From positions 1,626,423-1,690,422 of the forward strand of contig NZ_KZ614145.1 of the NCBI RefSeq assembly GCF_002884495.1: a stretch of DNA of 64,000 nucleotides, written 5' to 3'. The position numbers were made by a program, and so were the translations under genes. Below, piece after piece: positions 4,415 through 37,718 of the stretch. Positions within the stretch are counted from its first letter, which is position 1, and every line of letters begins with the position of its first letter. The notes under the pieces are model-generated. The model was not told where the DNA came from and searched no databases. It saw only the letters and a list, made by a program, of their open reading frames with translations. The DNA comes from Rummeliibacillus pycnus (GTDB taxonomy: Bacteria; Bacillota; Bacilli; Bacillales_A; Planococcaceae).

Positions 4415-4909
4415 ATGAGCCTGGGTTGTGTTCATGAATTCGAATTGGTAAAAGAAAAGAATTGGTATATAGTGAGATCATCTGTAATTCATGAAGACTT
4501 TATAGATTATATAAATGAACAAGTTAGTATTGAAAATAATTTATTTTTTGATGGTGTTCCTTCGATTAATCCAAGTTTCAAGAAAGGCCCCTACTCTGAA
4601 TCGATTCCTTCAGAAAAAGGGTTTAATCTTTATTCTGAAACTATTTTTAATCGACATTCTGTTCAAGAATTAAAGGAAATGTTTTCACAATGGAAGGGAG
4701 TTGCATTAGCCTTACCAGCTGATCTTTATTATTATGATTTAGAATCAATGGATGAAAAAACAAGAAATTCATTAACCGAGGAAGAGCTAAAATGGAGTAC
4801 AGATTATTATTTTGACAAAAAAGAAATAATTAAAAGCATCAATATTTGTTTAAATATTGTAGATAAACTAAAAGATCCCCAATATATTCTGTATCATAAA
4901 GGTATTTGA
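4415..4909 (+). CDS. uncharacterised protein, paralogue of the protein at 14038
   Basis: I do not recognise this 164-residue acidic, soluble protein by name. It is clearly homologous to the protein encoded at 14038-14493 on the other strand: both share a VIHEDFIDYI / IIDDDFIDYI block, a VPSINPS / VPCLNPN block, a W-containing helix (FSQWKG / FKSWKE), a FxKKEI motif, and the same last residues (YILYHKGI / YIYHSGI). AAAGGGGTGG precedes the ATG. It stands alone, next to a MITE-like repeat. Immunity-type proteins of toxin systems often occur as such scattered paralogues, but no toxin gene is adjacent, so that is speculation. Confidence 0.75.
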   Translation: MSLGCVHEFELVKEKNWYIVRSSVIHEDFIDYINEQVSIENNLFFDGVPSINPSFKKGPYSESIPSEKGFNLYSETIFNRHSVQELKEMFSQWKGVALALPADLYYYDLESMDEKTRNSLTEEELKWSTDYYFDKKEIIKSINICLNIVDKLKDPQYILYHKGI

Positions 4910-4982
4910 ATCTATTTCATAAATCAGTATTCTGTTAATAAATACGAACAATTCAGACCAACAAAGCATCTAATATTCATAG

Positions 4983-5174
4983 TTGACAATTCCGCTCCAG
5001 ACGACGCTTTCCACGGGCTTGACTTCAATCTCCTCGGGTCAACACGATGTTGATCACAAAGCCGTTGCCACAGGACGTGGCGTTCTTAGGCTTTGTTCCT
5101 TAATGACGTTCCTGCTGAGGCTTTCAGTTCAAGCTATTCCCGTAGGAGTCGCCGTCTTCCGCTCCATATTGAAC
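4983..5174. repeat. MITE-like palindromic intergenic repeat
   Basis: This GC-richer island stands out from its AT-rich surroundings. Its ends carry the direct word TTCCGCTCCA (4990-4999 and 5157-5166) and imperfect terminal inverted repeats (GACGACGCTTTCCACGGG against GACGGCGACTCCTACGGG on the opposite strand). Its centre is a strong nested hairpin, ACAAAGCC...GGCTTTGT enclosing GCCAC-aggac-GTGGC. It contains an open frame of 74 codons with no ribosome binding site and no protein character, which I reject as a gene. A degraded relative lies at 28612-28790. Similar elements are widespread between genes of Bacillaceae, from my general knowledge. Confidence 0.7.
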
Positions 5175-5266
5175 AAAAGTATAAACATTAAATGTTCGGA
5201 ATTTTAATATTAATTTTGCATTATGAAATTGACTCAATTAGAGAGTTTTTTAATTCACAAATTAAA

Positions 5267-5307
5267 AAAGGTCTTTCAACAATTCAATAAATTGTTGAAA
5301 GACCTTT
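5267..5307 (-). terminator. terminator of ypjP
   Basis: An 18-bp perfect inverted repeat (AAAGGTCTTTCAACAATT and its complement) with a five-base loop, 76 bases past the ypjP stop; poly-A and poly-T flanks suit either direction. Confidence 0.8.
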
Positions 5308-5382
5308 ATCTTCGTCTATATACTTCGTTTAGTAATCAAAAATTGTAACGATCCTTTTTCTTACTCTCTTTTTCAATTCAGA

Positions 5383-5979
5383 TTATGACAACCACTTAGG
5401 TGGAGTATCCTTAGACCAATAAATTTCACCTAAGTTGTAGTGTGAGGAAAATTGGTCAGTATATGTGTGATAGTGGAAGTTGTAATAGTAACCATCAAAT
5501 GGACGATTTTCTGTGCGTACATGGAAGCGGATGACGTCTTTTTTTGTTGACACATTATAGATATGGAACATTTTTTCTGAATAATCACCGCTTGGCTTTT
5601 CTGTAATTGCTAAATTCTTCATTTCTTGTGGATCTACACTATCTAATGTCATATGAATAGCTTGTTCGATTTTTGGGAAAATAATATTATCGAATTCATC
5701 GCTAATCTTTGGACCAATTTTACTGCCGAATTTCATATAAGCTTGTTCTTTTGCATGTTCTAGAATATTATCAGAAAATATCTCACTATCTGCTATTGAA
5801 TGATCTTGTTGAACAGCATTTATGTAATTTTCTGTATTTGATGATTGTTTAGATAGTTGGGTTTTATGGTTTCCGTTATGTTCTAAGAGGTTTTCCCAGA
5901 TGGAATGACTTGGTGTGATGACGCCAAGCGTTAAAACCGCAACTGTTGAAACTAATACTTTTTGAAGCCATTTCTTCAT
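5383..5979 (-). CDS. ypjP: YpjP-like protein
   Basis: Function unknown, conserved in Bacillales, where it lies beside the thymidylate synthase and DHFR genes. The 198-residue protein has an N-terminal signal or anchor (KKWLQKVLVSTVAVLTLGVI), a variable polar linker, then the conserved family core: AYMKFGSKIGPKISDEF, FHIYNVSTKKDVIRFHVR, DGYYYNFHYHTYTDQFSSHY and the C-terminal GEIYWSKDTPPKWLS. Cysteine is absent, so it is not a lipoprotein. In this genome it is separated from thyA-dfrA by the hsp20, yitT and 4415 genes, suggesting insertions or rearrangement here. Confidence 0.88.
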   Translation of the reverse strand: MKKWLQKVLVSTVAVLTLGVITPSHSIWENLLEHNGNHKTQLSKQSSNTENYINAVQQDHSIADSEIFSDNILEHAKEQAYMKFGSKIGPKISDEFDNIIFPKIEQAIHMTLDSVDPQEMKNLAITEKPSGDYSEKMFHIYNVSTKKDVIRFHVRTENRPFDGYYYNFHYHTYTDQFSSHYNLGEIYWSKDTPPKWLS

Positions 5980-6259: not shown

Positions 6260-6877
6260 TTAATTTGCAATACTTATGGATTGCTTACTATATTTTGGAT
6301 CCTCTAACGCTTTCAAGATAAAATTTGCGACATCTGCCCGAGCAATACTTCTACCCTTTTCTGGAATCCCTTCTACTGCTTCACGATATTTTCCGGTTTC
6401 TTCCCCATTCGTTAACCCCATGGGTCTAACTATTGTATAGTCCAAATGATACTTCATAATTGTGTCAACAGCATGTCGATGATCGAGAAGTGGATATTTT
6501 AAAGTTTTCATAATCATCTTACCAGAAATCCCCGGTATTTCACCGTATATACCAGCCGATGCGGTATAAATAATTCGATTTACATTGTGCATTTCCATAC
6601 CTGAAACAATATGATCAATCATTTTGCCTAATTCTTGTGATTCTTTTAATCCTTTGCTTGAAGCGAGGCAGGATACAACTGCGGTTTGGCCTTTTATTGC
6701 AGCCGCAACATCATTTGCTTGTAAAGCATTTCCGTGATAAATATGTAAAAAAGGATGTGAAATTTGAAGCTTAGAAGGTGTTCGCACAAATGCAGTCACT
6801 TCAATTTGTTTTTCTAAGGCTAAACGAACAACATGCTGCCCTACTCTTCCTGATGCTCCGAAAACAACTATTTTCAT
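6260..6877 (-). CDS. NAD(P)-binding atypical SDR (NmrA/YwnB-like)
   Basis: Cytoplasmic Rossmann-fold protein of 205 residues in the atypical short-chain dehydrogenase group (YwnB / flavin-reductase-like). The nucleotide-binding motif is MKIVVFGASGRVGQHVV at the extreme N-terminus, followed by TAFVRTPSKL and later DYTIVRPMGLTNG. These proteins lack a standard YxxxK pair and often have no known substrate. The ATG at 6877 follows AAAAGGGAG; a start 72 bases further upstream would put 24 foreign residues before the first strand of the Rossmann fold and is unlikely. Confidence 0.85.
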   Translation of the reverse strand: MKIVVFGASGRVGQHVVRLALEKQIEVTAFVRTPSKLQISHPFLHIYHGNALQANDVAAAIKGQTAVVSCLASSKGLKESQELGKMIDHIVSGMEMHNVNRIIYTASAGIYGEIPGISGKMIMKTLKYPLLDHRHAVDTIMKYHLDYTIVRPMGLTNGEETGKYREAVEGIPEKGRSIARADVANFILKALEDPKYSKQSISIAN

Positions 6878-7012
6878 AAAATTCAACTCCCTTTTAAAAA
6901 CATTATATCGAATGTTTTGCTTCAAAATAAAGAAGGAAGATTTGCCCAATTATTATAAAAGTTGAATTTTGAAGCACTTATTAAAGAGCGTTAAGAAACG
7001 TTTTTAGGCAAA

Positions 7013-7046
7013 GAAAGTGACGAGAATAATAATTCTCGTCACTTTC
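7013..7046. terminator. terminator of the acuI-like gene
   Basis: A 15-bp perfect stem, GAAAGTGACGAGAAT and its complement, with a four-base loop, right after the stop at 7050. Confidence 0.8.
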
Positions 7047-7049
7047 TTT

Positions 7050-8045
7050 TTATAATTTCACAAGTATTCTTCCTCTTGCTTCTCCTTTAAGTAATGTTGG
7101 AAGAACTTCAGGCAGTTGGTGTAAGCTTACTTCTTTTAATACGAGTTTTTCTAAGTTTGTAGGTTTGAAGTCGGTGGCAAGACGTTCCCAAGTTCTTAGC
7201 CTTTTTTCCATTGGACAATAGACTGAATCGATTCCAAGTAAGTTAATACCTCTTAAAATAAAAGGAAAAATGGTAGTTGGTATTTTGGTTCCTGCTGTTA
7301 ATCCGCTTGATGCTACCGAACCTCCGTATTGAATTTGACTTATTACAGAAGCAAGTGGTTCACCACCAACAGGATCAACAGCTGCTACCCATTTTTGTTT
7401 ACCTAACGCTTTGATCTTTCCATCATAAACATCTTCACGTGAAAGAATCTTTTGTGCACCAAGTTGTAACAAATACTCGTGTTCTGATTCTTTTCCTGTA
7501 CTAGCTTCAACTAGATATCCTAGAGTAGATAGAATCGATACAGCAAAGCTACCAACTCCTCCCGTTGCTCCGGTTACTAGAACTGTCCCTTTTTCAGGAG
7601 TAAGATTATTTTCTTCTAAACGTTGAACAGATAGAGCTGCGGTAAACCCTGCTGTACCTATGATCATAGCCTCTTTCAAAGAGAGGCCTTTTGGAAGTGG
7701 AACAACCCAATCAGCTGGTACTCGAGCATATTCACTAAATCCGCCGAAATGAGAGACACCTAGTTCATAACTAGTAACTATTACTTCGTCGCCTTTTTTA
7801 AAACGAGTATTATCTGACGAAACCACTACCCCTGCCAAATCAATCCCCGGAACAAAAGGATAATTTTTTACAATATTGCCATTAGGAACAGATGCCAAGC
7901 TATCTTTATAATTCACACTCGAATAATGTACGCGAATCAATACCTCTCCTTCAGGTAAATCTTGAAAAGTAAGCTGCTCAATTTCTACTGAGAAATGGTC
8001 CTCTTTTTTATCTACCACAAGTGCATGAAATAATTTCTCCATCAT
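7050..8045 (-). CDS. zinc-less MDR oxidoreductase, YhdH/AcuI/YhfP type
   Basis: Medium-chain reductase of the acrylyl-CoA reductase/quinone oxidoreductase branch, about 331 residues. It reduces activated double bonds with NADPH; the true substrate is not visible. Seen are VNYKDSLA and PFVPGIDLAGVVV in the N-terminal GroES-like domain, the NADP motif VLVTGATGGVGSFAV, and the PVGGEPLASV segment typical of YhdH; the cysteines of zinc MDRs are absent. Start ATG 8045 or 8042, both behind AAAGGGG. It is divergent from the TetR gene at 8333, and its promoter overlaps a TetR-type operator, so it is probably the target of that repressor. Confidence 0.9.
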   Translation of the reverse strand: MMEKLFHALVVDKKEDHFSVEIEQLTFQDLPEGEVLIRVHYSSVNYKDSLASVPNGNIVKNYPFVPGIDLAGVVVSSDNTRFKKGDEVIVTSYELGVSHFGGFSEYARVPADWVVPLPKGLSLKEAMIIGTAGFTAALSVQRLEENNLTPEKGTVLVTGATGGVGSFAVSILSTLGYLVEASTGKESEHEYLLQLGAQKILSREDVYDGKIKALGKQKWVAAVDPVGGEPLASVISQIQYGGSVASSGLTAGTKIPTTIFPFILRGINLLGIDSVYCPMEKRLRTWERLATDFKPTNLEKLVLKEVSLHQLPEVLPTLLKGEARGRILVKL

Positions 8046-8200
8046 TTTAACCCCTTTCAATTACTCATCAATCTCGCGATCTGTATTCTTTGGATTGATT
8101 CATAAAAATGTTATTATTGATTGTTTATATCCTTATCAACAAACTGATGAATTTCCAACAGACTTGTTAGTACATATCATTTCTTGATATTGATAAATTC

Positions 8201-8229
8201 ATTATAGATTTCATCATTTGACCGGTCAA
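8201..8229 (-). promoter_or_regulatory. promoter of the acuI-like gene
   Basis: On the minus strand TTGACC, 17 bases, TATAAT. The -35 box is half of the palindrome at 8219-8228, so operator occupancy would directly occlude it. Confidence 0.75.
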
Positions 8230-8288
8230 TATAATTTTGACCAGTCAGAATAAAAATATTCGTTTTTGACTAATTTTTCGACTAGTCA
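8219..8288. promoter_or_regulatory. three TetR-type operators
   Basis: Three copies of a ten-base palindrome lie in the divergent region: TGACCGGTCA (8219-8228), TGACCAGTCA (8238-8247) and CGACTAGTCA (8279-8288), plus a lone TGAC half at 8267. The first overlaps the -35 of the acuI-like gene; the third lies just before a TATAAT (8298-8303) that can serve the tetR gene. Confidence 0.7.
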
Positions 8289-8332
8289 TTTTTGTGTATA
8301 ATAGATTTAATAATAATGGATGGTGAATTTTA

Positions 8333-8929
8333 ATGAGCAATAAAGCCGAAGAACGGCGCGAGCAAATTTTAAGAGCTGCCTTTCAAGCTGTCTCAGACAA
8401 AGGCTATCATAGTGTTACCCTTCAGGATATCGCAGACTACGCAGATGTCAGTAAAGGGGTTACAAGTTACTACTTCCAAAATAAGGAGGATGTATTTGGT
8501 CACCTACTTGAATGGGTTACTGAAAAAATTTACAGAAATGAAAATGAGGCCATTCGTAAAAAACATACTGCAATTGAAAAATTACAAGCTTATGTCAATG
8601 CAGCCTTTTCTAACCCTAATGACAATCGTAAATTTTACAGAGTATATCTTGAATTTCTCGCTCAAGCGAATCATAACAAACAATTTCGTCTAACAAATAA
8701 CCAGTTTTATGAAAACTGTTGGTCAATTGGACGTGAAATTATTAAGCAAGGTCAAAAAGAAGGAACTTTCGCTCTGGTGGATATTGATCAGGCTTCCTAT
8801 GCAATCCGAGCACTAATTGATGGATCTCTTATTCAATGGTTAATGCGAAACGATGATCAATTACATGCATTCTATCGTGATAATTGTTTTAAAACAATCT
8901 ATAGTTACTTAACCAATAAAAATGATTAA
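8333..8929 (+). CDS. TetR family transcriptional regulator
   Basis: DNA-binding repressor of 198 residues. The N-terminal helix-turn-helix domain spans about residues 10-55 (ILRAAFQAVSDKGYHSVTLQDIADYADVSKG...TSYYFQNKEDVF) and matches the TetR_N family closely; the C-terminal ligand-binding part ends ...FKTIYSYLTN. It is divergently arranged with the acuI-like reductase, with three similar palindromes between them, so it most likely represses both that gene and itself. The inducer is unknown; related regulators sense fatty or acyl compounds or electrophiles. The ATG has only a weak ribosome binding site (TGGTGA). Confidence 0.92.
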   Translation: MSNKAEERREQILRAAFQAVSDKGYHSVTLQDIADYADVSKGVTSYYFQNKEDVFGHLLEWVTEKIYRNENEAIRKKHTAIEKLQAYVNAAFSNPNDNRKFYRVYLEFLAQANHNKQFRLTNNQFYENCWSIGREIIKQGQKEGTFALVDIDQASYAIRALIDGSLIQWLMRNDDQLHAFYRDNCFKTIYSYLTNKND

Positions 8930-36000: not shown

Positions 36001-36039
36001 ACACATGGTGGGGCCAGATTGACTGACTCCACCATGTGT
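36001..36039. terminator. terminator
   Basis: 11-bp perfect stem ACACATGGTGG with CCACCATGTGT, flanked by poly-A on the left, suited to minus-strand termination of the SpoIIP-like operon. Confidence 0.75.
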
Positions 36040-36235: not shown

Positions 36236-37129
36236 TTATTTACTTTTTATTAACTTTTCAATCACATCGGCTAATAGATCTGTTGTTCTATATTCTTCTT
36301 CCAATGTATTTTCAGCTCCACCGATATCTACAAGAACTGATTGATCCTTTAAATCTAGATTATACGTACTTTGCCGTGTTCCCATGTCTTTTACCACTAC
36401 TCCTCGTGATAATCCCGGAAAATTTGTTTCCATAATGCGATGAAGCTTTTTCGCAAATTTCTCATTTTCTTTATAGTGATCACTTGAATGAGAGACGACA
36501 AAGTTTACTTTTGCATAATTTTTTCCTTTAATCTTTACAGTTGTTATTTTACGTTCGGCTGAATCTCTGTGAATATCGAATATCATTTCAATCTTTGAAT
36601 TTTTTTTAAGAATATCATCTACTATTCCTCTAGAAACTTCATAAGAGCTAGGAAATGGTAAGCCTTTTTTCTTTAGAATTCTAAAAATATTACTCGTATC
36701 TTGAATGTTAGGGATGTTTTTTTCTTCTAATTTTTCGCTTAACCTTTTTCCCACTAAAGTGATATTCTGCTTGTCATCATATACATTCTCCTTGTTGGTA
36801 ATCGATTTAAATGATTCATAATTATGTGTATGATGAATTAATACTAGGGGTTGGCTTTTGTTAGCTACTGACGATGAGTTAGTATTTATTGTAGAATGTT
36901 CTGCTTGATCTAAGAATGAATTACCTGTAATTGTAACGATCGACATCATAACAACCGCACATAAAAGTAATCCGCTCGATACAATGGATATCTTTTTATA
37001 AACTTTTTTTCTTTTCAATTTTCTGGCTGCTTTTCTAAGCTTCTCTTCTGTAGATTGAACAAAATTTTTGTTTGGTGTTAGAGGATACGTTCTCTTTATA
37101 AGGTCAAATAATTCCTTATCATTTTGCAT
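36236..37129 (-). CDS. membrane SpoIIP-like protein with anti-sigma-like N-terminus
   Basis: 297 residues in two parts. Residues 1-66 are cytoplasmic then membrane-spanning: KELFDLIKRTYPLTPNKNFVQSTEEKLRKAARKLKRKK, then ISIVSSGLLLCAVVMMSIV, resembling the short N-terminus of anti-sigma factors. Residues ~95-297 are an extracytoplasmic SpoIIP-type domain: LIHHTHNYESF (H99, H102, E105 as probable zinc ligands), FDIHRDS (H187), VVSHSSDHYKENEKFAKKLH, and VDIGGAENTLEEE. SpoIIP is the peptidoglycan amidase/endopeptidase of engulfment; true SpoIIP is about 400 residues. The start overlaps the end of the ECF sigma gene by 11 bases. I infer a sigma/anti-sigma pair in which the sensor is a wall-binding or wall-cutting domain. 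Confidence 0.8.
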   Translation of the reverse strand: MQNDKELFDLIKRTYPLTPNKNFVQSTEEKLRKAARKLKRKKVYKKISIVSSGLLLCAVVMMSIVTITGNSFLDQAEHSTINTNSSSVANKSQPLVLIHHTHNYESFKSITNKENVYDDKQNITLVGKRLSEKLEEKNIPNIQDTSNIFRILKKKGLPFPSSYEVSRGIVDDILKKNSKIEMIFDIHRDSAERKITTVKIKGKNYAKVNFVVSHSSDHYKENEKFAKKLHRIMETNFPGLSRGVVVKDMGTRQSTYNLDLKDQSVLVDIGGAENTLEEEYRTTDLLADVIEKLIKSK

Positions 37130-37658
37130 TTTGTATTACCTCCTCCATTTCAAAATTCAACTTCTTTTTAAGGTCTTTTAGAGCTCGGTGATAACTAACC
37201 TTTACTTTTGACTCATTGCATTGAAGAATTTCAGCTGTTTCCTTTATGGAAAATTCATTTATTCCTCTTAGAATAACAACTGCCCGATAATGTGGTTTCA
37301 GTTTTGATATTGCTGCATGAACTAACTTTCTTGTTTCATATTGTTCCATTACTTCGCTAGGTTCTTTATCCGCTGAGAAGAATTGTGTAAAAAATCCTGC
37401 TGTAAAAAGCCCTACTAATCGCTTTTTTCGATAATGATCAATAGATACATGTTTGGCTATAGAGAAAATCCATGTCTTTAAATGATTTACTTTGTGTAGA
37501 TTGGAATAATTATTTAATACACGTATAAAAACCTCTTGCGTCATATCCTCTGCTTCACTTTGATTACCTGAAAAACAAATCAGAAATCGATAGACATCTA
37601 AATAATATTGACGATATATTTCACTAATCCGATCATCTAAATGCTCCATATTAAGCAA
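37119..37658 (-). CDS. ECF sigma factor
   Basis: 179-residue extracytoplasmic-function sigma factor. Region 2 is ISEIYRQYYLDVYRFLI...SEAEDMTQEVFIRVL and HLKTWIFSIAKHVSIDHYRKKR (promoter melting); region 4 is LVHAAISKLKPHYRAVVILRGINEFSIKETAEILQCNESKVKVSYHRALKDLKKKL (-35 recognition). The TTG at 37658 is best placed behind GGAGGTGA; an ATG three codons later is possible. It is translationally coupled to the SpoIIP-like gene, the normal arrangement for sigma and anti-sigma. A matching ECF-type promoter lies 34 bases upstream of the start. Confidence 0.93.
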   Translation of the reverse strand: MLNMEHLDDRISEIYRQYYLDVYRFLICFSGNQSEAEDMTQEVFIRVLNNYSNLHKVNHLKTWIFSIAKHVSIDHYRKKRLVGLFTAGFFTQFFSADKEPSEVMEQYETRKLVHAAISKLKPHYRAVVILRGINEFSIKETAEILQCNESKVKVSYHRALKDLKKKLNFEMEEVIQNAK

Positions 37659-37691
37659 ACCTTCACCTCCTTTTTCCATTTTCATATATTA

Positions 37692-37718
37692 ATCGTTTGA
37701 GACGAAGAAAAAGTTACA
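37692..37718 (-). promoter_or_regulatory. candidate autoregulatory ECF promoter
   Basis: Minus strand TGTAAC (37713-37718), 17 bases, CGAT (37692-37695). This has the AAC -35 core and CGxx -10 of Firmicute ECF sigma promoters (SigX-like TGTAAC-N17-CGAC differs by one base). It is correctly spaced from the start codon. Confidence 0.5.

Follow-up and report, generated by a model that had tools for sequence, protein, structure and literature searches.

The closest described relatives of the locus reported here are the SigV-RsiV, SigP-RsiP and SigW-RsiW systems of Bacillus, in which the genes of an ECF sigma factor and its wall-sensing membrane anti-sigma factor overlap in one operon with an autoregulatory TGTAAC-type promoter, and in which the anti-sigma factor is a single-pass protein with its N-terminus inside and a sensor domain outside. 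Enzyme families can also be recruited as anti-sigma ectodomains, as in RsgI6 of Clostridium thermocellum, whose GH10 ectodomain has largely lost catalysis, its activity being very low, and has kept the binding of its polysaccharide (PMC4711584). A further point of comparison is the sporulation protein SpoIIP (PF07454/TIGR02867), which in C. difficile needs residues H142, H222 and E309 (PMC6221140, PMC6934232).

Here we describe a locus of Rummeliibacillus pycnus that resembles the Bacillus systems in its overlapping genes, its promoter and the predicted topology of its membrane protein, and differs from them in that the outer domain is of the SpoIIP/Amidase_3 type, rather than a lysozyme-binding or other domain, the cytoplasmic domain is about 46 aa long with two helices and no zinc motif, and the only strong promoter in each genome is the operon's own. 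It shares with SigI6-RsgI6 the recruitment of an enzyme family, and departs from it in having an ECF sigma factor (SigI is not ECF and has no region 4), a short N-terminus (that of RsgI has about 165 aa) and a peptidoglycan enzyme domain in place of one whose ligand is a plant polysaccharide. We found no paper describing SpoIIP as the ectodomain of an ECF anti-sigma factor, in a literature search that did not cover the ECF re-classification (doi 10.1093/nar/gkaa1229).

An ECF sigma factor gene overlapping a SpoIIP-domain gene

Two ORFs lie on the minus strand of the window (the whole stretch of DNA analysed, 64,000 nucleotides), a sigma factor ORF at 37685-37119 and a SpoIIP-domain ORF at 37129-36236, and overlap by 11 bases, as a first-pass annotation had it. 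We read them as a two-gene operon, in which the overlap of sigma stop and partner start constitutes translational coupling and which a hairpin followed by U7 probably ends. The features are as follows:

37688 to 37718, minus strand: autoregulatory ECF-type promoter (footprint in 49 loci; single site per genome, 15/15), composed of TGTAAC (37718-37713), a 17-base spacer with a T-tract and TCAAA, and CGATTAAT (37695-37688)
37119 to 37685 as listed, minus strand: ECF sigma factor gene, likely start TTG 37658 or ATG 37649 (Pfam/NCBIfam, alignment of 22)
37119 to 37129, minus strand: the 11 bases shared by the two genes, from the partner start to the sigma stop (overlap length across relatives)
36236 to 37129, minus strand: membrane-anchored SpoIIP-domain protein of 297 aa, proposed cognate anti-sigma factor (PF07454 and constant sigma pairing)
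36992 to 37129, minus strand: residues 1-46, two-helix module on the cytoplasmic side, proposed to bind the sigma factor (HMM, AF2)
36929 to 36985, minus strand: residues 49-67, single transmembrane segment (hydropathy, positive-inside rule)
36239 to 36856, minus strand: residues 92-297, SpoIIP/Amidase_3-fold ectodomain (AF2 with VIA-align, conservation table)
36001 to 36039, minus strand: probable intrinsic terminator, a long stem and then U7 (RNA fold -28.3 kcal/mol, z -6.2)

The upstream ORF matches Sigma70_r2 (PF04542, E=3.6e-15) and Sigma70_r4_2 (PF08281, E=2.5e-14) and scores above the cut-off of TIGR02937; with regions 2 and 4_2 and no region 3, it has the make-up of an ECF sigma factor. 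Its listed start, ATG 37685, follows CGATTA by only 4 bases, which puts it at or upstream of the probable start of transcription. Given this promoter position and a conserved GGAGG-N-TTG arrangement, translation of the sigma factor probably begins at TTG 37658, which follows GGAGGTG, or at ATG 37649. The promoter had been said to lie at the right distance from the gene; it is indeed conserved, but too close to the listed ATG.

A conserved promoter with a single strong site per genome

Upstream of the sigma gene, the pattern TGTAACYTTTT-N7-TCAAACGAWTAAT is conserved amid unconserved DNA in all 49 testable relatives, well beyond what chance would give, and in the window it takes the form TGTAAC-N17-CGATTAAT, beginning at 37718. 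When genomes were searched for this pattern with up to 3 mismatches, each pair-bearing genome yielded exactly one site (15/15), which always belonged to this operon, and five pair-free genomes yielded either none or one three-mismatch match each. In the window genome, no intergenic match other than the operon promoter had an ORF behind it; five looser matches there fell inside or across ORFs or were followed by none. No second strong promoter site was found in any pair-bearing genome by this pattern search, which degenerate sites could escape.

Together, the footprint and the single site per genome make autoregulation of the operon by the sigma factor well supported, so that a promoter noticed in the first-pass annotation as autoregulatory-looking (TGTAAC-N17-CGAT) was borne out by comparison with relatives and by the genome search. 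A regulon of one operon is the simplest reading, with weaker sites possible. The proposal that the second gene is the main regulon member fits these data, since the one strong site of each genome belongs to the operon; describing the product as a hydrolase is doubtful here, as set out below. For a sigma factor with no clear target beyond its own operon, the output is sensible only if the encoded protein itself acts. With the operon as sole target, the protein would have to exert its effect on the wall, whether by binding it or, in members that carry the catalytic Glu, by cutting it; otherwise there would have to be weak, unseen targets.

The pair is inherited together and is distinct from sporulation SpoIIP

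We surveyed 261 genomes of the order, counting as a full-length homologue any match that ran from residue 1 to the end with E below 1e-90. Full-length SpoIIP-domain homologues occurred in 27 genomes, and a sigma gene lay directly upstream in 27/27, the sigma factors showing 51-67% identity. Other SpoIIPs of the order scored far lower (best 1e-73), with matches that begin further in, and the three shorter SpoIIP matches fetched in the survey had no such sigma adjoining. Across 51 loci, the overlap was 11 bases in 44, 14 bases in three and 4-8 bases in three, and a 27-base gap took its place in one.

Further members of the pair come from Bacillaceae, Planococcaceae and Brevibacillus, and two come from other families of the sampled class. 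Among plasmids, a 1.4-Mb replicon of Niallia taxi bore the single full-length member, the remaining plasmid matches being mostly shorter SpoIIP matches. A pattern-limited search of viral contigs found no relative, and a phage origin was set aside on this ground; a sequence search of the PDB likewise returned no relative.

On the tree, the SpoIIP domains of the paired proteins group together, with two orphans that lack a sigma gene (L060 and L061) nested among them. One of these, in Peribacillus frigoritolerans RU293 (L061:4872-5603), is lipoprotein-like, with Ala in place of the catalytic Glu; the other (L060:5010-5756) has lost both the sigma gene and the N-terminal module. At two more loci (L052:4461-5011 and L057:409-666), the sigma gene is frameshifted or truncated beside an intact SpoIIP-type gene, with assembly errors possible for both. 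L060, L052 and L057 are apparent cases of decay of the system.

The window genome carries a separate canonical SpoIIP, adjoining a gene that resembles gpr by product and place. The paired protein is encoded elsewhere, in an operon with an ECF promoter rather than at a gpr-spoIIP locus under sporulation sigma control, and it belongs to a separate clade. The two proteins are therefore distinct, as had been claimed: the ectodomain falls in the sporulation family and keeps the catalytic histidines and the E309 equivalent, whereas the anti-sigma-like N-terminal module, the ECF promoter and operon, the separate clade and an eroded catalytic Glu set the paired protein apart.

Many genomes of the family also carry several copies of a third class of SpoIIP, about 340-400 aa long and closer to Bacillaceae SpoIIP (G186:C1:1631713, G264:C31:13387 and others), which in some cases lie at a distance of 6-12 kb from the pair. 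All 27 pair-bearing genomes had at least one further SpoIIP match, and the pair was found in 0 of 60 genomes without any other SpoIIP, both being raw counts uncorrected for kinship. From these counts, the pair may be confined to lineages that form spores.

The ectodomain keeps its histidines while the catalytic glutamate drifts

The SpoIIP-domain ORF matches PF07454 with E=4.6e-64 (217 bits against a cut-off of 24.4) and TIGR02867 with 197 bits (cut-off 123). An AF2 model of residues 92-297 adopts the Amidase_3 fold, with VIA-align Z scores of 14.9 to CwlD (7rag_B) and 13.3 to CwlV. Residues H102, H187 and E278, which are the histidines of the HTH and DxHRD motifs and the glutamate of GGxxNxxxE, are invariant in 47/47 pair proteins and are the counterparts of H142, H222 and E309 of C. 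difficile SpoIIP; the window ectodomain keeps all three together with E105. The motifs HHTH and DIHRD had been read as a zinc site of a SpoIIP-like domain. The domain assignment stands, but only the last His of HHTH, H102, is invariant, and zinc itself is a prediction from the fold, since the SpoIIP of C. difficile was free of metal when purified (PMC6221140).

A different picture emerges at residue 268, which a profile alignment matches to the Glu within VLxExGF, a motif of Amidase_3. This Glu is Glu199 of CwlD (by residue count in the PDB chain, whose own numbering is offset by 24), and the CwlD E199A mutant is non-functional (PMC8496864). The position is Glu in 48/48 canonical SpoIIPs but in only 20 of the 47 pair proteins, the others having Asn (20), Asp (2), Ser (2), Lys (1), Thr (1) or Gln (1), and the tree requires that Glu was gained or lost at least 14 times. 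The window protein has Asp268. Its codon 258 (36356-36358) encodes Leu, where Gln is invariant in 50 aligned non-pair SpoIIPs; we take this as a further indication that the active site of this protein has drifted.

In about 43% of members every catalytic residue is retained, and these proteins could be active enzymes. For many others, including the window protein, the label hydrolase is doubtful, as the catalytic Glu has been replaced. The retention of metal-site residues while catalytic ones drift argues for an ectodomain that binds rather than cuts.

A short cytoplasmic module shared with sister systems

One membrane segment (residues 49-67) divides the protein, with a strongly positive N-terminal side (net charge about +5.9 before the helix and -0.8 after it). 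By hydropathy and the positive-inside rule, the side predicted to face inward is the more positive in 51/51 relatives, such that the N-terminus is predicted to be cytoplasmic. This agrees with the cytoplasmic region and single membrane segment described in the first-pass annotation, and gives the protein the predicted topology of an anti-sigma factor, N-in with one pass and an outer domain.

The AF2 model places helices at residues 4-14 and 21-70. Canonical SpoIIPs lack the module of about 46 residues, and its N-terminal residues are as well conserved as the enzyme-like part of the protein, with a mean majority frequency of 0.615 for residues 1-36, 0.622 for the ectodomain and 0.358 for the linker. 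Among curated anti-sigma domains in Pfam, the N-terminus matches none, Sigma_reg_N reaching only E=0.1. Class I anti-sigma domains have about 100 aa and four helices, often with an Hx3Cx2C motif. With about 46 aa, two helices and no Cys or His in residues 1-46, the module has the wrong length and helix number for that class. Class II (CnrY-like) domains have under 50 aa and two helices that embrace sigma 2 and sigma 4 (PMC7406223), and the cytosolic module resembles them in length and in the helix number of its AF2 model, a likeness from which no membership by sequence is claimed. Membership of the RsgI family was rejected, there being no RsgI_N match in Pfam and the window sigma having region 4.

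An HMM of residues 1-46 was run against the N-terminal 90 residues of two sets, 764 background ORFs and 44 genes located behind other ECF sigmas. Partners of the nearest sister sigmas took all six top places (E of 6e-7, 3e-6, 2e-5, 2e-4, 3e-3 and 0.03), and the best of the background matches had E=0.54. The N-terminal domain is thus common to other partners of the same sigma subfamily, in which sister sigmas and SpoIIP-type sigmas form one starred clade on the tree. The outer domains of the sister partners are YcdB-like (PF16244 in L062), weakly RseB/LolA-like (L034) or unassigned, one of these ectodomains having a weak, below cut-off likeness to RseB/MucB. Related promoters precede the sister systems, of the form TGTAACCTTTT...CGACTAAAT in L034 and TGAAAC...TCAAACGACTTAT in L036 and L037.

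Brevibacillus reuszeri (L062) carries a SpoIIP-type and a YcdB-type sigma/anti-sigma operon within 3 kb (4427-5816 and 6820-8896), which form a natural ectodomain-swap pair; a secreted YcdB/YpeB-like protein is encoded there besides the two sister operons.

Evolutionary distances of the sigma factor correlated with those of the N-terminus (r=0.82), with a partial r=0.41 once the ectodomain was controlled for. The correlation of sigma with ectodomain distances was as high (0.87), so that co-inheritance alone explains much of the former, which counts as weak support. Because the cytoplasmic module stays with the sigma subfamily while the outer domain swaps, its role as a modular anti-sigma domain is indirectly but strongly supported. 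The constant gene coupling and the predicted N-in topology point the same way, in keeping with the anti-sigma-like anchor that had been suggested for this protein.

A model for the operon and its alternatives

We consider it probable that the second gene encodes a membrane-anchored anti-sigma factor with a SpoIIP-derived, peptidoglycan-sensing ectodomain, operating in a self-amplifying loop and representing the conversion of an enzyme to a sensor. In this model, the two-helix cytoplasmic N-terminus of about 46 residues would hold the sigma factor, the single predicted membrane helix would cross to the outside, and the SpoIIP-type domain would bind peptidoglycan or peptide stems as a sensor, a task for which catalysis, lost in about half of the family, would be dispensable. 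In response to a wall signal, the protein would be cut in successive steps, at site 1 and then by RasP, as RsiV, RsiW and RsiP are (PMC8844934), which would free the sigma factor. The freed sigma would transcribe mainly its own operon from the footprinted TGTAAC-N17-CGAWTAAT promoter, and this positive loop would place more SpoIIP-domain protein on the wall. The more specific scenario, in which an engulfment amidase was turned into an ECF sigma receptor whose site was kept for binding while catalysis was repeatedly lost, under a single self-amplifying promoter, is one we hold tentatively, at somewhat less than even confidence.

The second gene could instead encode the effector, an active, tethered SpoIIP amidase/endopeptidase under sigma control, with an N-terminus that is a mere anchor and another protein restraining the sigma factor. 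That the operon is the sigma factor's only strong target would suit such an arrangement, as would H102, H187 and E278 in every one of the pair proteins and a catalytic Glu in 20 of the 47. Yet a mere anchor would be expected neither to be as conserved as the ectodomain nor to recur with unrelated ectodomains in sister partners, and the active site is eroding; we judge this explanation improbable. The evidence for an anti-sigma factor applies equally to a protein of dual role, both anti-sigma factor and working amidase, in which catalysis (for example, release of product) is the signal and wall cutting is what is sensed. All residues shown to be essential are present in every member, and the Asp of the window protein is the mildest change at the catalytic Glu. 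In 25/47 members, however, that position holds Asn, Ser, Thr, Lys or Gln through many independent changes, and such varied replacements imply that the pair is held together by something that does not require catalysis, which leaves the dual role possible but unlikely.

The distribution of the pair is sporadic (27/261 genomes of the order, and two members outside the family in the sampled class), as might be expected if a degenerate extra copy of SpoIIP had come to lie beside an ECF sigma gene by chance. Universal pairing, a fixed overlap, a shared promoter and the common ancestry of both genes all contradict this, and the conservation of pairing and overlap effectively rules it out.

Implications

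If the anti-sigma model is true, peptidoglycan amidase domains would join the known ways in which anti-sigma factors read the cell wall, and would have followed the same evolutionary route from enzyme to receptor as the GH10 domain of RsgI6. The family would also provide an easy test bed, with one promoter, two genes, natural variants that either keep or lack the catalytic glutamate, and sister systems that carry swapped ectodomains on the same sigma subfamily.
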